DNA of 39,395 nt from Planctomycetota bacterium (lineage in GTDB: Bacteria > Planctomycetota > Planctomycetia > JALXBF01). Positions within the stretch are counted from its first letter, which is position 1; the number at the start of each line of letters is the position of its first letter. A model generated the notes under the pieces. The model was not told the DNA's origin. It saw only the letters and a program-made list of their open reading frames with translations, and did not search any database. Location of the stretch: the NCBI GenBank assembly GCA_026991575.1, contig JALXBF010000164.1:1-39395 (forward strand), in the 5' to 3' direction. Positions 26,743-38,702 of this stretch are shown piece by piece. Made by a program: the position numbers and the translations under genes.

Positions 26743-27027
26743 TCATTCGATGACCGCTTCCGTGCTGCCGCGTTCGAGACCGAGGACCTCACGGTAAACG
26801 ACGGAGCCTGCGGGCAGGCGGTAGATGTAGACGCTGTCGTGCTCAGGATCAATGAGACCGCGGAGGCCGTGTTTGAGCCGCTTGAGCTGGCTTTCGGTCA
26901 GCTCCCCCTCGAACGCCGAGTTCTGCACCCAGTTCAGGAACCGCCGCAGATACTGGCACACCTTGCCTACCCGCCTTTGCTCCACGTCGTAGACCACAAT
27001 GACAAACGGTCTGTTGCCTACCACCAT
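26743..27027 (-). CDS. cas2: CRISPR-associated protein Cas2
   Basis: 94 residues, normal Cas2 size. The ferredoxin-like fold starts FVIVVYDVEQRRVGKV, with the conserved metal-site Asp14; FLNWVQNSAFEGELT and DSVYIYRL are typical family segments. Cas2 bridges two Cas1 dimers in the spacer-integration complex. ATG 27027 is chosen because it starts just before the fold and overlaps the cas1 stop by 10 nt; an upstream start would add 19 residues lying inside cas1. Confidence 0.95.
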   Translation of the reverse strand: MVVGNRPFVIVVYDVEQRRVGKVCQYLRRFLNWVQNSAFEGELTESQLKRLKHGLRGLIDPEHDSVYIYRLPAGSVVYREVLGLERGSTEAVIE

Positions 27028-28028
27028 GCCTTGAGCACCCGGTACGGTTGAACGCCGATCAGGTGGCGGACGAGCTTGTAGCATTCGATGCGCATGAGCT
27101 GCCGGTACGAAACGTTCCGTTTCAAGCTACGATGACGCACCGTCTGCTGCAGGACCGCCTCCCACTCACGCACGAACAGCTTGCGACCGTCCTCGTTTAG
27201 ATAGACCCCTTTCGCGCCACCAACCGCTTGAGTATGCCGATCAGGGTTCAGCATCTTGCGGTTGATCAGGCGAAAGATCAGACGATCGACCAGCAGGGGC
27301 TTGAAGATCTCAGCTATATCCAGTGCCAGGGAGAAACGCCGCTCGGACGGTTCGTGCAGATAGCTGATCGTTGGATTGAGCTGGGTCACGTAGATTTCCG
27401 AGAGGGCAGCCGAGTAGGCCAGGGCATTGCCGAAGGAGATCATGGCGTTGAGCAGGTTGTCCGGCGGGCGACGAACCCGCTTGGTAAACGGTTCGGGCAG
27501 ATCCATGATCTGGTTGAACGCGCCGTAGTAAGCGTCGCGGGATTGGCCTTCGAGGCTCATCAGGGTGGCGATGTCCGGGGCAGTCTTGACCTGCGCCATG
27601 TTCGCCTCGACGACCGCGATGATATCGCCGATCTCACGGCCGCGATTGCGGTAGTAGCGCAAGTTGCGTCGAATGTGGTAGATCGCACCGTAGACGAACT
27701 GCCGGGCGATACGCAGGCGTCGTCGGCCATTGCGGTAGTGCGCTACCTGCTGGACCAGCAGGTGGCCGCTGACGTTGCTCTCACGTGGATAGAACGTCCC
27801 CGTGTAGTAGCCATAGTAGTTGAAGAAGTGCACGGGAATGCCGGCCTGGGCTAGGAAGTTGAGCAGTTTGGTATTCAGCTCGAGTTCTGAGAAAACGTAG
27901 ATATCTCGAACGTCCTCGACGGGTATCGGACGCCGTTGGCGTTGGCCATCCTGCTCGGATTCCAAGTACAGCGTGTTCTGGCGTCGGCGTAGTCGACCGC
28001 TTCGAAACAGGTAATAGGATCTGGCCAT
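27018..28028 (-). CDS. cas1: CRISPR-associated endonuclease Cas1
   Basis: 336 residues. Cas1 integrates new spacers into the CRISPR array with Cas2. The N-terminal beta domain (YYLFRSGRLRRRQNTLYLE; GIPVHFFNYYGYYTG) precedes the helical catalytic domain. Metal ligands: Glu160 in SLEGQSRDAYYGAF, His225 in NPTISYLHEPSERR, Asp237 in LALDIAEIFKP, all intact. The sequence style is that of Cas1 from type I-B or III systems with Cas4. ATG 28028 follows a G-rich stretch and starts the conserved YYLFRSG; a start further upstream would lie inside cas4. Confidence 0.96.
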   Translation of the reverse strand: MARSYYLFRSGRLRRRQNTLYLESEQDGQRQRRPIPVEDVRDIYVFSELELNTKLLNFLAQAGIPVHFFNYYGYYTGTFYPRESNVSGHLLVQQVAHYRNGRRRLRIARQFVYGAIYHIRRNLRYYRNRGREIGDIIAVVEANMAQVKTAPDIATLMSLEGQSRDAYYGAFNQIMDLPEPFTKRVRRPPDNLLNAMISFGNALAYSAALSEIYVTQLNPTISYLHEPSERRFSLALDIAEIFKPLLVDRLIFRLINRKMLNPDRHTQAVGGAKGVYLNEDGRKLFVREWEAVLQQTVRHRSLKRNVSYRQLMRIECYKLVRHLIGVQPYRVLKAWW

Positions 28029-28044
28029 AGCGTGATCCCCCCAG

Positions 28045-28710
28045 TCATCCCCAGCACAGCTCGCAGTACGCGCACGCCTTGCAGTAGGGCTGCCACTCAA
28101 CCTGCGGAGGCCTCGGCAGACTCTCGATAGCCGGGATGTCGTTCAGGGCCTTGATCACCTCCTGTTCAAGCTCTGGTGTCAGCTCGACTCGCTGGACACG
28201 CCGCTGGCGTGGGAATCGCAGTTCCCCGCTCAGGTCGGCGGCCCCCAGTTGCTTTAGGTACCACAGATAGTAGGCCAGCTGGAGGCGGGCGGCGTGGACG
28301 AGCTTGGGTGAATACTTGATCTCGATCAGCCGATTCCGTTGGTGGAGGAGGTCGATGCGAATGAGTTCATGCACCAGCACGTCGCGTCGGTCCTGGTGCC
28401 GATAGGCCGTCTCGTGTAGGAAGCGACCGAGGGCGACGCGGTCGGAGGTGTGTTCCAGGGTGATGTGTCGAGAGAACAGCCAGAGACGGCGGAGGCACGT
28501 GGCCCAGTAGTTGACTTTGACGCCGTTGATCCGCAGCCGACGTGCGGTTTCCGGGTCGACGCTGGGGCAGGCCCTCCGGCTGCTCTGCCGATCGCACACG
28601 CGTTGAGAACGGCATGCTACCGGCTCTGATGGTGACGACGACGCCACGGTGCTTCTGGCTGCCTGCCGTCCAGCCTGTTTCCTCATCACGTTTCGTTTTG
28701 TCGACGCCAC
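28045..28710 (-). CDS. cas4: CRISPR-associated exonuclease Cas4
   Basis: 221 residues. Cas4 trims prespacers and selects the adjacent motif during adaptation. Seen: INGVKVNYWATCLRRLWLFS with the first cluster cysteine, GRFLHETAYR, the nuclease motif RIDLL...LIEIKYS (D and ExK), and the C-terminal Fe-S cysteines in PYCKACAYCELCWG. GTG 28710 has GGAGGA 6 nt upstream on the minus strand, the best start signal, although it adds about 55 non-conserved, Ser/Arg-rich residues before the family homology; GTG 28599 is an alternative. The gene ends 16 nt before cas1, forming cas4-cas1-cas2. Confidence 0.93.
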   Translation of the reverse strand: MASTKRNVMRKQAGRQAARSTVASSSPSEPVACRSQRVCDRQSSRRACPSVDPETARRLRINGVKVNYWATCLRRLWLFSRHITLEHTSDRVALGRFLHETAYRHQDRRDVLVHELIRIDLLHQRNRLIEIKYSPKLVHAARLQLAYYLWYLKQLGAADLSGELRFPRQRRVQRVELTPELEQEVIKALNDIPAIESLPRPPQVEWQPYCKACAYCELCWG

Positions 28711-29324
28711 GGTTCTTCCTCCGATTCGCGGCAGCCCGATACCGGAGGCTTGGCAACGTCTCTCAGTGACACGCTGCTTCCCTTAACAGGCCCGCTTTCG
28801 TTTTGTTCTTCGGATGGTTCTGCATCCAGCTACTTCGCCGACTACCTCGCAGGCGGGTGGTTGCCTACGCCTGCTGACGGCCTCCGACAGTGTGTACTTG
28901 TTTTGGCAGCGAAACCTGACAACACAAGTGGCAGAGCAGTGTGGCCAGCTCGGCATGGACGTCGCGCTGGATCGGGCCGGGGTAGGTTACGATGTTTTCT
29001 TGTCAGTGGCCGGAACCCCGTGCGGCGGGCCGTCTGCATCGACCCAGGTGCTCGCACAGGTCATGGGCTGTCGGCTGGGCGATAGTTGACGGACGGGGAC
29101 TGAGGCAGATGGATCGCACGGTACCGATTCGAAGGAAAGCATGGCTCGGCAGGTGCCCCCGGAGTGTCTTGGCCAGTCGCCCGCTCGGGCGGCAGTGCCA
29201 AGCCGGCGAAACTCCAGGGCGGTCCACTTGCCGGACCGGCTGCACCGCGTTAAACTACCGGGTGTCAACGCGAGGGTGCCGGAACTGCCTGATGCCGATC
29301 CGGGAGTCTTCGGGAGGTTCGCCG
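28711..29324. other. Divergent region between cas4 and the DUF1559 gene
   Basis: 614 nt without a supported gene. It must hold the promoter of the cas4-cas1-cas2 operon and that of the DUF1559 gene. TTTCGTTTTGT occurs at 28796-28806 and again at 28691-28701, within the cas4 start, 105 nt apart. A 91-codon plus-strand frame (28814-29089) lacks recognisable domains or a good start. There are no CRISPR repeats. Confidence 0.5.
29228..29256 (+). promoter_or_regulatory. Candidate promoter of the DUF1559 gene
   Basis: TTGCCG and TAAACT are separated by 17 nt, each matching four of six bases of the sigma-70 consensus. The -10 ends 68 nt before ATG 29325. GTTAAA/CTAAA-type sequences also sit about 70-85 nt before the starts at 5488 and 8550. 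Confidence 0.35.
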
Positions 29325-30413
29325 ATGCGCCGAGGGTTCACGTTGATCGAGCTCTTGGTCGTTATCGCCATTATTGCCGTGTTGATTGCCCTTCTCTTGC
29401 CCGCCGTGCAGATGGCCCGAGAAGCCGCGCGACGCGCGCAGTGTGCAAACAATCTCAAACAGATCGGCCTTGCCCTGCACAACTACCACCAGGCACACGG
29501 GTACTTCCCGCCCGAAGGTAACAAGGCCTACTTCCAGCCCAGAAGCAAACGCTGGGGCCCGGGGGGAAACCAGTACTGGTCGCTGAAAGTATTCCTCTTG
29601 CCGTACATGGATCGTGCCGACATCTACAACGCGGCAAATCTGGATCTACGCGCGTACGGTGAGCCAGCGGGGTATCGTTCTTGGAGTCGGGACGCGAACC
29701 TGACCCTGCGTCGCGCGCGGATCGAATCTTTCCTCTGTCCGTCGGATCACCACTTCGACCACGCAAATCCCTACCGTACGTCGCAGAGCTATGCTCCCAA
29801 CCACGGAACGGAACGCTACTTCAACAACTGGCGCACGAACGGCATTGTCTATCGACCGGGCTGGTACCGGTACTATCAGAAGCCGCTGGGGGTCCGGGAC
29901 ATTGTCGACGGGACTGCGTTTACGGCGGCGTTCTCCGAGTGGGTGCGCGGCAGCATGGTGTGGAACCGGAGTGTGGAGGCCCGCAGGGCTCTGGCACTGC
30001 GCGACCAGGCTGCCTGGGTCTGGCAAATCCAGCCGGTCTGGATTGCCTTTCCCCGTAGTACGCATCTGGGACGTGAGGGGGATCGCCAGTGGGAGCGTCT
30101 GTGCGAGGCATCACAGATCCCGCGCTGGCACGCCAAGGGAAGCATGTGGTGGGCTTCCGCTACCGGGGCCGGCACTGGCATCGGCTTTGGGAAGCGACCG
30201 AATCGCAAGTCGTGTGCACCTTACTCGCCGCTGTGGTGGGACGTGGGTACGCACCTGATGACGGCCAGTAGCATGCACCCAGGCGGGGTAAATGTGCTGT
30301 TTGCCGACGGCCGCGTGCGGTTCATTTCTGATGAGGTCGACGAGCAGGTTTGGTTTGCCATCGGCACACGGGACGGTCAGGAGCCGATTGACGAGACGGC
30401 CCTCAGCTTCTAG
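29325..30413 (+). CDS. DUF1559 (prepilin-like) protein
   Basis: 362 residues. It begins with a type IV prepilin-like N-methylation segment: [20 protein letters not shown], with Glu five residues after the cleavage-site Gly, then the DUF1559 signature ([36 protein letters not shown]) and the C-terminal [18 protein letters not shown]. This family is greatly expanded in planctomycetes; it is probably a pseudopilin-like surface or secretion component. ATG 29325 has GGGAGG 7 nt upstream. A short lipoprotein gene follows, as often seen for this family. It sits between the two cas gene groups but has no known CRISPR role. Confidence 0.95.
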
Positions 30414-30768: not shown

Positions 30769-31644
30769 GGTAACCAGGAACCGGCGCCTTGGAGAGTCGC
30801 TTAGCGTACGGTGCGCCCTGGAATGTTGATGCGATGCCGAGGACCTGGGGCGAGTGTGACCGGCGGGAGGGAATTCCGGTTCCGACTATTCGAGTGCTAT
30901 TGCGTACCGACCGCGCGGGGTTCGCTGGCGGTAGTTTGGTAACCTTGGTTTCCCGCCCGACTTCTTGAATCCAGCACTGCAGCGCTGCCGCGCCGGAGGG
31001 TTTTCCCCGCCGCTATGAACCGCTCAGCGCTCCCCCGACCTCGTGGCGATGCTCCCCGCGACCTGGTGGCGGCCGCCAGCCACGTACAAGGTGTGCTGCC
31101 CTTCGCGTTGCTCCCTTACGCGCGGTACCCATGCCGGCCAACGGATTCGCGTTCGCTCGGACCAGGAGGGAGTCCGATGCTCTCGCTTGCGCAACTCCCG
31201 TAGCTCCGTCCACTCACACCGGTGTGCCCTCCGGACTTGGGCGTTGGATGCCCGAGAACGCCACAAGGAAGGCGCCCTGGAGTGATATGCTGTCGAGCCA
31301 GTGGTGGACCAGCAACGTGTCGTGGGCCGCTTAACCGAAATCGTCTTGTCTTTTCCCGACAGACCTGCGGCAGCCGCGGGCCCCTCGAGGCACGCTATGG
31401 CGTGGCCAGGAACGCCGGCATCCTCGGACACGTTGTAGCCTCCTTGATCTGACGGTCCCCATTCCCGTACTGGGGGACACATGCATGTCCGCAGGCGTTT
31501 GTTTCCGATCGGGACCTGGACCCGGTACCGGCAAAGCTCCCCTTCAGGAAGGACCTGAGGCTCGCTTCATCGGCGGGCATCGATCCCGTGGAACTCGGGG
31601 CCGTGTTCGTGTAAGAAATTCGGCCCGGACCGGAGTTAGCATTA

Positions 31645-31663
31645 GGGGACGAGCGCCGTCCCC
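31645..31663 (+). promoter_or_regulatory. Hairpin directly upstream of the cas6 ribosome binding site
   Basis: GGGGAC (31645-31650) pairs with GTCCCC (31658-31663) around a 7-nt loop, 1 nt before GAGGAGG. As RNA it would border the ribosome binding site. It may be a translational control element, or a site resembling a CRISPR-repeat hairpin, which Cas6 recognises; the latter is only an idea. Confidence 0.4.
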
Positions 31664-31676
31664 GAGGAGGCGTGCG

Positions 31677-32513
31677 ATGAGATTCCGGGTCCGTCTCATA
31701 CCGGTTGAGAGCGTTGCGGTTGTGCCGTGGAACTACCAACACCATCTTCAGGGCGTGCTCTACCGCGTGTTGATCGAGGAGCAGCCTGAGCTGGATGAGC
31801 TCTTGCATCGCAGCGGTTTCCCCTCAGGAGCCCGGCGGTTCCGCATGCTAACGTTCTCGAAGCTGCTGCCGCGCGCGGCCGAGACGAGCCACCATGGGCT
31901 GATCCTCCACCCACCCGTCTACTGGCTGATCAGCACCGCACTCGAGGCGGTGGCCAACGCGCTGGTACAGGGGCTGTTGAAACGAGCGGAGATCGCGGTC
32001 GGGGGACAGCAGTTCTTCATCGATCAAGTAGAAGACCAGCCCGTGCCCGACTTCAGCGCGGGGAAGATGCGTTTCGAGACTCTGTCACCCATCGTCGTAT
32101 CGCGGCCGGTCACCGATCAACGAGGTCGGTTAACCAAACAATACCTCGCGCCGGACGATCCGGAATTCTGGCAGCGCGTGGCGAGCAACCTGGCACGGAA
32201 AGCAGACGCGTTGGGCATCGAACCGGTTGGCTCGGTTCAGTTTAAGCCGATCGGTCGATGGCGGTCCCGGTTGATCTCGGTGCAGGGGGCCCGAGTCCGT
32301 GGTTACGAGGGGCGCTTTGTGGCCACTGGGGATCCGGCCCTGTTGTGCCTTGCCTATGACGTTGGGCTAGGCGAACGAAACGGCCAGGGTTTTGGCATGA
32401 TTGGGCTGATGCGCAGCGGTCGGCCTCCACAGGGCAGGCGTGGCTACGGGAGCAGCGGCAACGGGCGGCGGCTCGGCGACGGTGAACAAAGCAACGCAAA
32501 CAGCTGCCATTGA
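31677..32513 (+). CDS. cas6: CRISPR RNA endoribonuclease Cas6
   Basis: 278 residues. Cas6 cuts precursor crRNA within repeats. Two ferredoxin-like (RAMP) domains: the N-terminal part has PWNYQHHLQGVLYRVL, DELLHRSGF (His44, likely catalytic) and RRFRMLTFSKLL; the C-terminal part ends with the glycine-rich RAMP loop DVGLGERNGQGFGMIGL. A basic tail follows. ATG 31677 is supported by AGGAGG at 31665-31670 with a 6-nt gap, better than the distant upstream start at 31485 whose extra 64 residues look unrelated. Located 3 kb from cas4-cas1-cas2 on the other strand; overlapped at its 3' end by a methyltransferase gene. Confidence 0.93.
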   Translation: MRFRVRLIPVESVAVVPWNYQHHLQGVLYRVLIEEQPELDELLHRSGFPSGARRFRMLTFSKLLPRAAETSHHGLILHPPVYWLISTALEAVANALVQGLLKRAEIAVGGQQFFIDQVEDQPVPDFSAGKMRFETLSPIVVSRPVTDQRGRLTKQYLAPDDPEFWQRVASNLARKADALGIEPVGSVQFKPIGRWRSRLISVQGARVRGYEGRFVATGDPALLCLAYDVGLGERNGQGFGMIGLMRSGRPPQGRRGYGSSGNGRRLGDGEQSNANSCH

Positions 32514-33369
32514 CAAGACGCTGGCGGAAATCTGTCGTGAGTTCCGCCTTCCGGCGGTTGCCTCGGAGGCCCAATGGCAGCGGCTGCTAGAGTGCTTGCC
32601 CGTTGCCGTTCGTCGCCGCTTTGAGTGCTATAGCCTGGCGCTAAGCCTGTCTGGTGACCCCTTCGAGCGACGCCGACTTCAAGAGGCGCTGGCCGAACGC
32701 ACTGTCCCGCCAGGCGCCGCCCACATGCTCGAAGAGGCCCTCAGGCTGGCAGCCGCTCCCGACCTGGAGGCACGCTTCTATCGGTTCCTTGGCTCTGACC
32801 CTCAGCTGGTGGCCGTTGGCCTGGCCGGCCGCATGCGGCTGTACCGAGAGCTCCTGCCGTCTCTGGTGGCGGCGGTGACGCAGAGCGGGAGCCCGCCCAG
32901 GCGTATCCTGGACGTAGGCAGTTTCGCCGGCGTGGTCACGGTGACGATCGCTCGGGTTTTCCCGCAGGCCCACGTGATCGGCATCGAACGGGACGTGCGG
33001 TGGGTCGAGGTGGCCCGAGACTTAGCCCGACGCCTGGCCGTGGGCAATGTGCGCTTTGAACCAGCGGACTGCTGGGCGTACAACCCGGAGTGCAGCGTCG
33101 ACCAGATCTGGTGGTTGTTCGTAACGTCAGGTCAGGCGCCCGAGGATCTCCTGGGGGCCATCCTGAGCCGTGCCCGTAGCTGGCTTCGAGTTGGTGGACG
33201 GCTCATCCTGCTGGAGCGCTGGCAACAAGACGTGGACTTGCTCATCCGCTCTGCCGCGCGCGTGGCCGGGTTGGCCATTGGCGATGTGCTTCCCGTCCGA
33301 TGGCACTGCCCCGCGGAAGGCGACCAGCTGCAGAGAACCAATGCGTACTTATTGGACCGCGTCTCGTAA
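32440..33369 (+). CDS. Class I SAM-dependent methyltransferase overlapping cas6
   Basis: 309 residues. The N-terminal ~145 residues are helical and unrecognised (EICREFRLPAVASEAQWQRL...). The C-terminal part is a Rossmann methyltransferase: motif I RILDVGSFAGVVTVTIARVF (a variant in which the middle glycine of GxGxG is replaced by Phe), acidic GIERD after strand 2, VRFEPADCW, and RSWLRVGGRLILLERW for the later strands. The substrate is unknown. GTG 32440, with AGGGCAGGC before it, overlaps cas6 by 74 nt; GTG 32482 is an alternative. The overlap suggests co-expression with cas6, though no link to CRISPR function is established. Confidence 0.82.
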   Translation: MATGAAATGGGSATVNKATQTAAIDKTLAEICREFRLPAVASEAQWQRLLECLPVAVRRRFECYSLALSLSGDPFERRRLQEALAERTVPPGAAHMLEEALRLAAAPDLEARFYRFLGSDPQLVAVGLAGRMRLYRELLPSLVAAVTQSGSPPRRILDVGSFAGVVTVTIARVFPQAHVIGIERDVRWVEVARDLARRLAVGNVRFEPADCWAYNPECSVDQIWWLFVTSGQAPEDLLGAILSRARSWLRVGGRLILLERWQQDVDLLIRSAARVAGLAIGDVLPVRWHCPAEGDQLQRTNAYLLDRVS

Positions 33370-33486
33370 TCAACCCTGCGGGTCACGTGGCTCCTGTCCG
33401 GATCCTCACGCCGGCGCCGGCGGCAAGTCCCGGTGGTTCTGTCCTCACGGGAGCCAGCGTCGCAGCAGCCGGATCCCGCCAAGCCA

Positions 33487-35697
33487 TTAGCCTCCATCGG
33501 ATGGTTCAGCCGATTGTCCTCGCGGTGGCGCGGCTGTCGTTCCTTCATGGTTCCGTTGCCATTCGATCCGGCCTAAACGCATGACCCAGTGGAGACGGGC
33601 CAGGAGCTGGACGTCCTCGAGTGGGTTGCCGTCGACAGCGATCAAGTCTGCCATGGTGCCAGGCTGGACCCGTCCGGCCGGTAGGCCGAGCCAATCGGCG
33701 CAGCGCGACGTGGCTGCTTTAAGCACCTCGATCGGGGGCAGGCCGGCTTCCTGCAGTAAGCGCAGCTCGCGATGCAGGGCTGCACCATGAAACGTGCCAG
33801 GATTCCCGGCATCGGAGCCGGCTACAATGGCGACCCTGGCCTGGTAGGCGGCGCGGACGTTGGCCATGGCTTGGGCAAGCATGGCGGCGCGAGCCTGGGC
33901 CGGAATGAGCGAACCCATGAACCGCGCGAAAGGCTGTTTGAGCACCTCCTGTTCGTTGGCCGACAGTGTCTCGCGCACGAACGGCTCCTCGAGGATCCGC
34001 TCCGCCTCGGTCATCCTCATCAGCCCTTCATAGACGGCGAGAGTCGGGATCAGCACAGCGGATCGTTCAACCATCGTCTGCCATGCCGCCTGCGGCACGG
34101 CACCCGTCACGGGGACGTGCTCGATGCCGTCTGCGCCCATTTCGGCCGCGGCAAGCAGTTCGGCGGGTTCGTCGACATGGACCGAAATACGCAGGCCTGC
34201 GGCGTGTGCTTGGCGGATGAGTTCGCGAAGGATTTCCGGTTCCAGCCGCCGGTAACTGAAGTAGGGCGGAATGCCACCGCCGTAGACCGCTTTGATTGCG
34301 TCTACCTCGCCAAGGCAATCCGCCAGCGCCTCGGGTACTTCGGCAACGGCTGCCAGCTCTCGCACAAACTCGCGCTTGTCCGGCATGAACACAGCGAACT
34401 GGGCCGGATGGCCGCCGGGCGCGGTAAACAGCGGACCGACAAGCACAAACGCAGGGCCCCGCAGGAAGCCGCTCCGCAGCGAATCGCGCACGCTCAGGAC
34501 AACGTTCTTCGCGTCGCCGCAGCTCTTGACCATCGTCACGCCGCACCGGAGGTAGCGTTTCAAGTGTTCCCGCACCAGTTTCCTGGGCTCCGTCGTGAAC
34601 GCCCCGCCGAAGAACAGCCCCCCTGAGGTCAGGTGCACGTGAGCGTCTCCTAGGCCGGGCAGAACGGTCAACTTACGAGCGTCCACTAGCGTTGCTCCGG
34701 CCGGGGGCGGCTCGTAGCCGTCAACCACATCCGTGATCCGCCCGGCGCGGATCTTGATCGTGACCCGTGAACGAAGCTGCTCGGACGTACCATCCCACAG
34801 CCTGCCAGCATGCACGTAGACGGTCCCGGTCGGAAGCAGGGTGAAAGCGATGACGGCTTTCAGCACTCGCGGCGTTGCAAGCAGGCCGACGATCAAGGCC
34901 GCGCTAGTCAGCCACTGGCTTGGCCGCAGCGCCGTGAACGGGTCCCAGCGGAACACTCCGATGGCCAGAGCAAGGCCGAGCACGGCGGTAACCACTAGCG
35001 AGATCGCGGCCAGCAGAATCTCGGCCATCTCCGGCGACGCCTCACCGACAGACTCGGCCGCCCTGACCATGACGCCCAGCGGGTTGTATTCGCCGATTTG
35101 ACGCAGCCAGGAGGGTAGGAACTCGGCCGGGATCGTCGCACCGCTGAGGAACATCATCGGCAGGAAAAGCGTTTGCCCGACGGCCGGCACCAGCTTTGCA
35201 CTCGGCACCGTGGCGGCAATGATTAGCCCGAGTGCCAGTGCCGTCAGGGCTCCACAACCCAGGATGAGGACGGCAAGCGGCAGATGCACGGGGCCAGAGG
35301 GCGCCACCACGATAAGCAGTACGGTGAGCTGAACCGCCAGCGATATCCCCCCGACGATGCAGAAGGCCGTCGCTTCGGCCAACAGCAGAAGGGCCGGCGG
35401 AAGCGGGGTGACCAGGTAACGCCGCAGCACGCCACGCTCGCGCCACGTTACCAGCTGTGTCGGCAGGCTGAAGAGTCCCATCGCGATCATGTTGATGGCG
35501 ACGACCCTGAGGATGAGCCGCCAGTGCTCCTCGGCCGGTAGCCGCGCGAAGATTACCGTGAACGAGACGGCAAAGATGATGGGAAACGCCAGCGTCCAGA
35601 ACACACTCTGCCGGTCGCGCAGCCACAGCCGCAGCGACACAGCCGTGGACTTCAGATAGGCTCGGATCACTCGTCTCGTTCCGCCGGTTTCAGTCAT
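33487..35697 (-). CDS. ABC-2 permease fused to an amidohydrolase
   Basis: 736 residues in one uninterrupted frame. Residues 1-255 are an ABC-2/DrrB-type permease: about six helices between 31 and 250, including FLSGATIPAEFLPSWLRQIG and EYNPLGVMVRAAE. A further hydrophobic segment (~263-290) leads into a complete amidohydrolase of the imidazolonepropionase/prolidase-like group: DAHVH (His353, His355), EVDAIKAVYGGG (Lys469, likely carboxylated), SVHVDE (His507), IEHV (His527), GSDAGNPGT (Asp629). If the seventh helix is real, the hydrolase lies outside the cytoplasm. It begins in a 4-nt ATGA overlap with the upstream ABC ATPase gene. An internal GTG at codon 278 could in principle start a separate signal-bearing hydrolase, but it has no ribosome binding site. 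Confidence 0.88.
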   Translation of the reverse strand: MTETGGTRRVIRAYLKSTAVSLRLWLRDRQSVFWTLAFPIIFAVSFTVIFARLPAEEHWRLILRVVAINMIAMGLFSLPTQLVTWRERGVLRRYLVTPLPPALLLLAEATAFCIVGGISLAVQLTVLLIVVAPSGPVHLPLAVLILGCGALTALALGLIIAATVPSAKLVPAVGQTLFLPMMFLSGATIPAEFLPSWLRQIGEYNPLGVMVRAAESVGEASPEMAEILLAAISLVVTAVLGLALAIGVFRWDPFTALRPSQWLTSAALIVGLLATPRVLKAVIAFTLLPTGTVYVHAGRLWDGTSEQLRSRVTIKIRAGRITDVVDGYEPPPAGATLVDARKLTVLPGLGDAHVHLTSGGLFFGGAFTTEPRKLVREHLKRYLRCGVTMVKSCGDAKNVVLSVRDSLRSGFLRGPAFVLVGPLFTAPGGHPAQFAVFMPDKREFVRELAAVAEVPEALADCLGEVDAIKAVYGGGIPPYFSYRRLEPEILRELIRQAHAAGLRISVHVDEPAELLAAAEMGADGIEHVPVTGAVPQAAWQTMVERSAVLIPTLAVYEGLMRMTEAERILEEPFVRETLSANEQEVLKQPFARFMGSLIPAQARAAMLAQAMANVRAAYQARVAIVAGSDAGNPGTFHGAALHRELRLLQEAGLPPIEVLKAATSRCADWLGLPAGRVQPGTMADLIAVDGNPLEDVQLLARLHWVMRLGRIEWQRNHEGTTAAPPRGQSAEPSDGG

Positions 35698-36692
35698 GGC
35701 GTTCCTGTGTCCGCAGGGATTCGGTTCTGGCCGACCGGTGCGTTGGAGCTGGTCTCGGCCGCTGTCCGATCGGCGTTGATGTCGTCGGTGAGCTTCAGGA
35801 AGGCTTCCTCCAGAGTGGCGCTTCGCACGTGCAAGCTCTCGATCTCGCTACCGGGCGGCAGCTGTTGGACAAGCTCCGTGATCGCGCGGCTAAGCGATTC
35901 GGTCAGCAGCTTTAGCCGGAGCCGGTCGGCTCTCGGCTGGCTACGTACCACTAGCCGACAGCCTTCCGGTATCGCCAGCCGCTCCACCGTCGGGCCGCGC
36001 ACGGTTAGCTCCACGCTGTGCTGCGCGCCAACTTCCCGGATCAGCTCCGCCGGGTGGCCGCACGCGATCAGACGGCCGCGGTGCAGGATGGCGACGCGAT
36101 CGCAAAGCTTTTCCGCCTCCTCGATGTAGTGTGTCGTCAGCAGCACCGTGCGCCCCTCGTCGCGGAACTGCTTGATAAGCTCGTGCAATTCGTTGCGGGC
36201 ATGTGCGTCCAGCCCGGCCGTCGGCTCATCAAGGATGACCAGCTCCGGGTCGTTCACCAGCGCCAACGCCAGCGCCAGCCGCTGCTTCTGGCCGCCGGAG
36301 AGTCGCTCATACGGCCGGTCCGCTTGCTCGGCAAGACCGGCCCAGCCCAGCAGCGACGCCGCCGGCCGATGGTTGGGGTAGAAGCTGGCGAACAGCTCGA
36401 GTGCTTCGCGCGGCGTGATCAACGGGGGCAGGGACGTAGCCTGAAGCTGAACCCCGATGCGCGCTTTGACCTGCTGCGGGTAGCGCACCGCGTCGATGCC
36501 CAGTACGCGGATCGACCCACCGTCCGGCCGCCGCACCCCCTCGATGCATTCCACCGTCGTCGTCTTTCCCGCACCGTTCGGGCCAAGCAGCCCAAACGTT
36601 TCCCCGCAGGACACGGTCAGCGACAGCCCGTGGACCGCCACCACCGGCCCGTATCGCTTGGTTAGACCACTGATCTCAATAGCGTTCGTCAT
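35694..36692 (-). CDS. ABC transporter ATP-binding protein, DrrA-like
   Basis: 332 residues. Walker A GPNGAGKTTT, signature LSGGQKQRLALALALVNDP, Walker B LVILDEPTAGLD and the switch histidine in LLTTHYIEEAEKLCDR are all present, with the C-terminal DUF4162-like tail seen in drug/lipid exporters (HVRSATLEEAFLKLTDD). It powers the ABC-2 permease encoded next, whose start overlaps this stop by 4 nt. ATG 36692 begins the conserved TNAIEISGLTKRYG; an upstream GTG at 36827 adds 45 residues without similarity. Confidence 0.93.
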   Translation of the reverse strand: MTNAIEISGLTKRYGPVVAVHGLSLTVSCGETFGLLGPNGAGKTTTVECIEGVRRPDGGSIRVLGIDAVRYPQQVKARIGVQLQATSLPPLITPREALELFASFYPNHRPAASLLGWAGLAEQADRPYERLSGGQKQRLALALALVNDPELVILDEPTAGLDAHARNELHELIKQFRDEGRTVLLTTHYIEEAEKLCDRVAILHRGRLIACGHPAELIREVGAQHSVELTVRGPTVERLAIPEGCRLVVRSQPRADRLRLKLLTESLSRAITELVQQLPPGSEIESLHVRSATLEEAFLKLTDDINADRTAAETSSNAPVGQNRIPADTGTP

Positions 36693-36868
36693 CCGGTAAG
36701 TGTCGTCCTGAAATCCAGAGTGCCAGCGTAGCTGATGTCGGGATCGGCCGGAACGTCTATTCGCGTTGTCGCAGCCGATCTTGTCGGTCGACGGGCGCGC
36801 GGTCCGTTCGTTCCTATTGTCGTCCATTTGTCGCCCATACGTGCCGAGCTGCTGCGGGAGCTTCTGCC

Positions 36869-38702
36869 GTGCATCGTCAGGCGGCGGCGTTCGTGCTATC
36901 TGCTGCGGTGATCACGCTGAGTTGTCCGGCCGCTGACTGGCGGAACCTGCGGAACGGGTACCCCGTTTCCGGACGAGGGGTACTGTGATCCGCCGTACGT
37001 GCTGGGCCTGCCCGATGGCAGCTGGCTTTGCGTGCTGACCACTGGACCGGGACGCGAAGGAGAGCCAGGCCAGCACATCGTGGCTACCCGGAGCGAGGAC
37101 CAGGGGCGGAGTTGGTCGAAGCCAGTGGCGATCGAGCCATCAAGCGGACCGGAGGCCTCGTGGGCAACGCCGTCGGTCACGCCCTACGGCCGCGTGTTCG
37201 TCTTTTACACCTGCAACGGCGATCGCGTTCGTCACCTGCCCGGCGGACGGCGGCGGATCCGGGCCGATATGCTCGGTTGGTACTGCTTCCGCTACTCCGA
37301 CGACGGTGGTCGCACGTGGTCTCGGCGTTACCGGCTGCCTATGAGAGTGACCGAGTGTGATCGAGCGAATGACTGGCAGGGTACGGTCCAGATCTTCTGG
37401 GGGATAGACAAGCCCAAGATTGACAATGGTGTCGTGCGGTTCGCGTTTACGAAGATCCGGCGGTACATGCTTGACGGGGGAGAGGGCTGGTTGTTTGAGA
37501 GTCCGAACCTGTTGACCGAGCGCGACCCGACACGGCTCCGGTGGCGGATGCTGCCGGTGGGGGAGAAGGGCATCAGAGCGGAAGCGTTTGGCTTGGTCCA
37601 GGAGGAGCACAATCACGCGCCGATTGGCGGCGGACGACTGTTCATGGTGTATCGCACGGCGTTGGGGTTCCCGTGCCAGACATATAGCCGAGACGGCGGA
37701 CGCACGTGGGAGTGGCCCACGCCGATGACCTACTCGGCTAGCGGCCGCGTGATGAAGAGCCCGCGGGCGTGTCCTAAGCTGTGGCGGTGCTCGAACGGCA
37801 AGTTCCTGTTCTGGTACCACAACCACAGCGGCCGGACATTCCGGGAACGGAACCCGGCGTGGCTGGCGGGGGGTGAGCTTCGGGCCGACGGGCGAATCTG
37901 GTGGAGCGAACCGGAGGTGGTGCTCTACGATCCAGAGCCCCAGGTGCGGATTAGTTATCCCGACCTGATCGAGCAGGACGGTAGGTTCTGGATCACCGAG
38001 ACGCAAAAGAGTGTGGCACGCGTGCATCCGATAGATCTGAGCCTGCTGGACGGGCTCTGGCGGCAGGGAAAGGTGCGCGAGGTTGTCAGGCGTGGCCTGG
38101 TACTGGATATCGGCCCGAGTGAGCATCGCTTGCCGGTGCGGGCGGACCTTCGCACCGATAGTGGCTTGACACTCGACATCTGGCTTCGGCCGGGGGCGTT
38201 CGAGCGGTCTGAGCTAGTCGTGGACGCTCGGGATGGGGCAGGACGCGGCGTGGCTGTGTGGACGAGGGAGGATCGGTCAGTGGCGGTGCTGCTCAGCGAC
38301 GGTCAGCCGAGGGTGTCGTGGCGGAGTGACCCGGGCGGGCTCAGCCCTGGAAGGCGGCACCACGTGGTGGTCATCGTCGACGCACGGCCGCGGCTTGTCC
38401 TGTTTGTGGTGGACGGCAAGTTATGCGATGGCGGTTCGGCTCGGCAGTACGGGTGGCTGCGGTACGATGCCGAGCTGGGTGACGTGACCGGCAGCGGCCG
38501 GCTTCGCGTGGGGAAACGGGTTGCTCGGCTACGATGGTACAACCGATACCTGCGCGTCTCCGAAGCGGTGGCCAACTACCACGCCGGCGGTGGGGCCGCG
38601 ACGCGTGCCGGGCATGGTGCCGATGCCACGGCGCGGGCGGAGCGGAAAGCTCGCGTGCAACCGGCGTTGCTAACCAACGAAGCTTGCGAGCGGCCGAGGT
38701 AG
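36869..38702 (+). CDS. Secreted sialidase/BNR-like protein with LamG-type C-terminus, frameshifted
   Basis: GTG 36869 (GGGAG 8 nt upstream) opens a signal peptide, MHRQAAAFVLSAAVITLSCP, then AADWRNLRNGYPV, but this frame stops at TGA 36986. Moving one base at the TTT of 36966-36968 continues as PDEGYCDPPYVLGLPDGSW and the rest of the protein to 38702, the expected family sequence. The body has Asp-box/BNR-like units (SEDQGRSWSKP, SDDGGRTWSRR, SRDGGRTWEWP) of a sialidase-type propeller, then a concanavalin/LamG-like domain (LTLDIWLRPG to LRWYNRYLRVSEAVANYHAG). Translation of the body alone could only start internally (about 36999), without a signal. Either a sequencing/assembly error in a homopolymer or a decaying gene. 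Confidence 0.8.

Follow-up and report, generated by a model that had tools for sequence, protein, structure and literature searches.

A gene of a planctomycete encodes, in one reading frame, an ABC-2 permease, a seventh transmembrane helix, and a prolidase-type amidohydrolase. It lies in the window, i.e., the whole stretch of 39,395 nucleotides analyzed here (Planctomycetota bacterium, GenBank assembly GCA_026991575.1, contig JALXBF010000164.1). The overall best explanation is a DrrAB-type ABC exporter encoded by two genes, in which the fusion protein would be the membrane subunit and would carry a processing enzyme on its outer face (probability about 0.6). Both halves belong to known families, and the joined form, the adaptor helix, and the breadth of their occurrence appear undescribed; the fusion was not found in the open-access literature, subscription papers lying outside the search. 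A preliminary description of the DNA had stated that no such exporter was known, which holds for the literature searched, whereas in genomes the architecture is widespread.

Organization of the Fusion Gene

The frame runs on the minus strand from 35697 to 33487 for 736 codons without an internal stop (Table 1), and the plus strand of this interval holds no open frame. Two Pfam matches pass their cut-offs, namely ABC2_membrane at residues 21–214 (E = 2.9e-21) and Amidohydro_1 at residues 344–701 (E = 4.5e-20), and the permease part scores 76.4 bits against PF01061 (cut-off 26.9) and 52.6 bits against PF12698 (cut-off 31.6). In the AlphaFold2 (AF2) model of the fusion protein (mean pLDDT 87), an N-terminal interfacial helix and six membrane helices are followed by a helix at residues 259–286, which runs directly into the first strand of the enzyme at residue 292. 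The single polypeptide and the six-helix permease of the preliminary description are thereby borne out, by the frame and full-length fused relatives and by Pfam and the AF2 helices, respectively, and the hydrophobic segment that it had placed at residues 263–290 corresponds to the seventh helix of the model.

An error of assembly or sequencing might have fused two adjacent genes, since both other frames have stops at codons 263–268 and a one-base error could in principle join them. However, the GC content at third codon positions is constant (0.79–0.81) before, across, and after the junction, so that the junction is coding in the fusion's own frame, and colinear fusions occur in dozens of independent assemblies. 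Because the fusion is conserved, an artefact is refuted in practice and its probability is close to nil.

The stop codon of the partner ATPase gene overlaps the start codon of the fusion gene by 4 bases (ATGA), and the ATPase matches ABC_tran of Pfam (E = 1.1e-29) and resembles DrrA and NodI. The pair is oriented toward a methyltransferase gene on the opposite strand (32440–33369). Neither a sigma-70-like promoter nor a clear terminator excess was detected when positions 33300–37100 were scanned.

Table 1. Features of the fusion gene and its partner (positions in the window; residues of the fusion protein).
Feature	Position	Strand	Evidence
Fusion gene: ABC-2 permease, seventh helix, and amidohydrolase, 736 aa	33487..35697	-	ORF, Pfam, AF2, full-length homologues
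ABC-2 permease part, residues 1–258; six transmembrane helices; FRWD end motif (residues 249–252)	34924..35697	-	PF01061/PF12698, AF2 helices, alignment
Seventh helix, residues 259–286, joint between permease and enzyme; predicted single in-to-out crossing	34840..34923	-	AF2; homologous helices in other permeases; loop charges
Amidohydrolase part, residues 292–714, prolidase type; ligands H353, H355, K469, H507, H527, D629	33556..34824	-	PF01979, Foldseek, ligand conservation
Partner ABC ATPase gene, DrrA/NodI-like	35694..36827	-	ORF, Pfam, sequence similarity

Several other genes of the window were observed. According to Pfam, cas1 (minus strand), an overlapping cas4 (minus strand), and cas6 (plus strand) are located at 27018–28710 and 31485–32513; a search of the window for direct repeats with copies at most 120 bases apart revealed no array. 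A pilin-like DUF1559 protein whose N-terminus bears a methylation motif, as is typical of planctomycetes, is encoded at 28992–30413, where the longest open reading frame has about 110 extra N-terminal residues and the true start probably lies near residue 112. A BNR/sialidase-like protein with a laminin-G-like domain is encoded at 36999–38702, divergent from the ATPase gene.

Distribution of the Fusion

A single-sequence scan of genome contigs with the full window protein returned no match because this protein has no close relative, and a permease profile was needed instead. When GTDB contigs were searched with the profile, the same three-part order in one frame was found at 26 of the best 80 permease relatives. 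These loci belong to Acidobacteriota (including Bryobacterales, Acidobacteriaceae, Vicinamibacteria, and Thermoanaerobaculia), Calditrichota (a Calditrichia bacterium), candidate division KSB1, and Rhodothermota (a Rhodothermales bacterium); the window gene is the sole fusion found in Planctomycetota, and at least four further phyla have the joined gene. By tblastn, the full window protein matches other fused frames down to E = 7.5e-90 over residues 11–709, far above chance, and it aligns with most fusions over residues about 10–710 at 28–34% identity. A homologous ATPase gene (cluster c1) lies directly upstream in 21 fused loci, and besides the ATPase no neighbour is constant outside close kin. 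Downstream of the Calditrichia fusion gene lie genes for a histidine kinase of the LytS type and a LytTR response regulator (L089:8154-9973), a hint that an outside signal regulates this locus.

The fusion is most frequent in the acidobacterial class of the L108 fusion (presumably Terriglobia), where a fused query finds matches in 56 of the 299 genomes. A full-length fusion is present in at least 34 of them, the query's own genome included; 17 match only up to residues 365–477 in one frame, most of these frames being 570–780 residues long, and five match the permease only. Searches of the phyla to which the Calditrichia and Rhodothermales genomes belong matched the founding genome only, so the fusion is sporadic outside acidobacteria, which suggests horizontal transfer or frequent loss. 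No fusion was detected in the window's own class (398 genomes), the window genome being the sole member of its order in the set compared, nor in the plasmids searched, and a search of the phylum with the permease part recovered seven-helix permeases of planctomycete family f32 and no fusion. Two sets of candidates were rejected: L002–L004 carry separate hydrolase genes, the long frame being upstream read-through, and the 753-residue frame of L075 belongs to an ordinary two-permease locus. The preliminary description had held that a fusion would be contradicted by a frameshift near the junction or by relatives in which the two genes are always separate; the same order in 26 loci, and in at least 34 genomes of one class, favours it.

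The Seventh Helix and the Side of the Enzyme

Plain relatives of the permease end 0–4 residues from their FRWE motif. By contrast, each of the 26 fusions has a hydrophobic helix that follows 4–13 residues after the FRW(E/D) end, and so do 14 permeases that bear a different C-terminal domain and several that are unfused, among them L082, L083, and L086 of planctomycete family f32 and L173. The protein of L173 shares 47% identity with the permease of the L108 fusion and ends right after helix 7. In a quick permease tree, the deep branches of which are weak, the helix-7 proteins group together, except for two Salinibacter-type sequences within the six-helix group, and L173 and L107 fall within or beside fused groups; these two have probably lost the hydrolase. 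Since helix 7 is present in hydrolase-free sister permeases and in permeases with other C-terminal domains, it is a trait of the permease lineage. The earlier suggestion that the segment is the relic signal peptide of a secreted hydrolase was consequently abandoned: the helix follows the permease end with or without a hydrolase, and simple relatives stop at FRWE.

The helix of the window protein is less hydrophobic than those of its relatives and carries R277 and K280 in its last third; its membrane part therefore probably spans residues about 259–276. With only about 16 hydrophobic residues before R277 and two basic residues within the predicted helix, it might fail to cross the membrane, and the enzyme would then be cytoplasmic. 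Against this, the homologous helices of relatives are clearly hydrophobic over 19 residues. Furthermore, the alternative C-terminal domain is elsewhere a protein of its own that starts with a signal-like leader, which places the C-terminus after helix 7 outside, and stand-alone relatives of the amidohydrolase start with signal-like or anchor segments (leaders and topology were assigned by eye from sequence). The loop charges fit an N-terminus inside, so that seven crossings would bring the C-terminus outside. A cytoplasmic enzyme is hence very improbable, and the fusion architecture with its enzyme outside the cytoplasmic membrane, the location anticipated by the preliminary description, is regarded as highly probable.

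The Hydrolase Domain and Its Decay

All six metal ligands (Table 1) are present in the window protein, and 22 of the 25 fusions aligned, the window included, keep all six unchanged, in agreement with the intact metal site first described. The best Foldseek matches of the enzyme part were 2qs8 (E = 4.8e-26; TM 0.85 by target), 3mtw, and ADH3, and the sequence matches solved cog1228 enzymes at E = 1.7e-32. The nearest solved structures are of the cog1228 prolidase type, i.e., Xaa-Pro dipeptidase, the Lys/Arg carboxypeptidase Cc2672, and ochratoxin-degrading hydrolases. A viral fold search returned distant metal-dependent hydrolases of giant viruses only.

In the Bryobacterales-type fusions L104, L120, and L141, several metal ligands are lost and the permease is kept; L104 and L120 retain the whole domain with five of the six ligands changed, and L141 is similar. 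Part of the hydrolase domain is missing in L125 and L156, where the permease is likewise kept. These five proteins, together with further acidobacterial genomes, are apparent pseudoenzyme exporters. Because the enzyme is degenerate or lost in some acidobacteria while the pump stays, catalysis would be accessory and not essential to transport in every lineage; the enzyme appears to be under selection in most lineages and dispensable in some where the pump remains.

Retention of a whole but altered domain in L104 and L120, and in similar form in L141, would also be expected if the hydrolase domain acted mainly as a binding or gating element (a receptor or lid) at the pump outlet, with catalysis secondary. 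About 16 further acidobacterial genomes, which match the first part of the hydrolase only, yet mostly in long frames, fit this possibility as well. Nevertheless, the invariance of the six ligands in the great majority of fusions argues for selection on catalysis in most lineages, and a chiefly binding role is considered improbable.

A Split Form of the Pairing

When 47 hydrolases were placed in a tree, the fused enzymes clustered with one stand-alone enzyme, L174, with support of 97/83, apart from 21 other stand-alone enzymes, which come mostly from the window's class, other phyla being thinly sampled; more cases like L174, or stand-alone enzymes without a pump, may exist. The L174 hydrolase (L174:4740-6719) has an N-terminal single-helix membrane anchor and an extra C-terminal region, and within 6 bases it is followed by an ABC ATPase gene and then by an ABC-2 permease gene of another type (L175:26-796, 811-2016). 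The locus is read from its gene order as a split version of the fused pairing of hydrolase and ABC-2 permease, and the position of L174 beside ABC-2 exporter genes ties this hydrolase lineage to ABC-2 export even as a separate protein. One and two origins of the fused hydrolases are both compatible with the data (AU test of a single clade, p = 0.21), and a joint placement of the window protein with L154 is unsafe because both are long branches.

The same locus bears on whether the permease is merely a membrane anchor, like a signal anchor, with pump and enzyme acting on different molecules. Decay or disappearance of the hydrolase in several acidobacteria where the pump stays fits such loose coupling, and the stand-alone L174 shows the enzyme lineage in use at a membrane surface. 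On the other hand, the single-helix anchor that L174 itself carries shows a simpler way to achieve anchoring alone, and even this enzyme is encoded beside an ABC-2 exporter; moreover, the pairing is seen in five phyla and comes both fused and split. Tethering alone is thus considered unlikely, and the functional tie of pump and enzyme that had been proposed at the outset is supported.

A Second Domain on the Same Helix

In Opitutae and related genomes, another domain of 130 residues follows helix 7 on the same chain. Verrucomicrobia, Acidobacteria, and Myxococcota have ABC-2 permeases with this orphan domain fused to helix 7 (L144:2365-2859, L100, L111, L118, L128, L136, L138, L158, L159, and L167), and in planctomycete f32 genomes (L083, L085, and L086) it is encoded by a gene of its own downstream of seven-helix permeases and starts with a signal-like leader. 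The fused and separate forms are homologous (hmmsearch, E = 1e-24 to 1e-31). AF2 predicts a confident all-helical fold for the domain (pLDDT 89; pTM 0.87), for which no match was found in Pfam or, at E ≤ 0.001, in the PDB. Tentatively, these proteins may constitute a class of seven-helix ABC-2 permeases that is so far undescribed. Its helix 7 would be a plug-in adaptor through which a DrrAB-type pump is fitted, at its outlet, with different extracytoplasmic domains (a prolidase-type hydrolase in one branch and, in another, the all-helical orphan, fused or as a secreted neighbour), so that export would be coupled to processing outside.

Proposed Mechanism and Comparison With Known Systems

In the proposed mechanism, the permease would hold, through helix 7, a metalloenzyme resembling prolidases and N-acyl-amino-acid hydrolases at the outer face of the cytoplasmic membrane. 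The ATPase would power the outward transport of a small molecule, which probably contains an amino acid in amide or peptide linkage, and the tethered hydrolase would trim or inactivate the exported molecule, or a related one from outside, at the release site of the pump. That pump and enzyme process a shared substrate is put at slightly below even odds. Candidate roles are the maturation of an exported amide compound, the inactivation of a toxic amide at the surface alongside efflux, and plain anchoring. Among the open reading frames of the window, neither a biosynthetic cluster nor a synthetase of a non-ribosomal peptide cluster was seen, the contig being just 39 kb long.

The permease part resembles the DrrAB/NodIJ-type ABC-2 exporters (PF01061, TIGR01247/TIGR01188), which share the six-helix permease, the FRWE-type end, and an ATPase gene directly upstream; standard members stop at FRWE, whereas the window fusion adds the seventh helix and the enzyme. 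Similarly, the enzyme shares its fold and six metal ligands with prolidase-type amidohydrolases of cog1228 (2qs8, Cc2672 3mtw, 3n2c, the ochratoxin hydrolase ADH3, and ochratoxinase), although the known members are free enzymes and the window domain is held by an ABC permease. Other hydrolases are carried on transporter chains. In peptidase-containing ABC transporters (PCATs), the peptidase is N-terminal, cytoplasmic, and of the cysteine type, and in fusions of ABC-2 permeases with M1 aminopeptidases, the enzyme is unrelated to the amidohydrolase; a Pfam scan revealed no N-terminal C39 cysteine peptidase in the window protein.

The nearest functional analogues, which work most like the maturation role among the candidates, are ZmaM, EdeA, and PamJ, in which a peptide prodrug is activated by a ClbP-type peptidase joined to half of an ABC transporter (PMC9889268, PMC4234257), so that an extracytoplasmic amide-cleaving enzyme and a part of an ABC exporter likewise share one chain. 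Their enzyme, however, is an N-terminal ClbP-like serine peptidase of the beta-lactamase family on a half-transporter with its own ATPase domain, whereas the window fusion has a C-terminal metal amidohydrolase on an ABC-2 permease and a separate ATPase gene, and no match to PF00144 (ClbP-like) was found in the window protein by the Pfam scan. Because the enzyme differs and the ATPase is separate, the likeness is functional only.

The fused, split, and decayed forms, together with the parallel fusion of the second domain, constitute a natural series on the coupling between export and extracellular processing, found mainly in Acidobacteriota, the secreted chemistry of which is poorly known. To our knowledge, most DrrAB-type exporters are without an assigned substrate. 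Here the attached enzyme offers a handle, in that the substrate of the hydrolase would give a direct and testable hint to the cargo of the pump.
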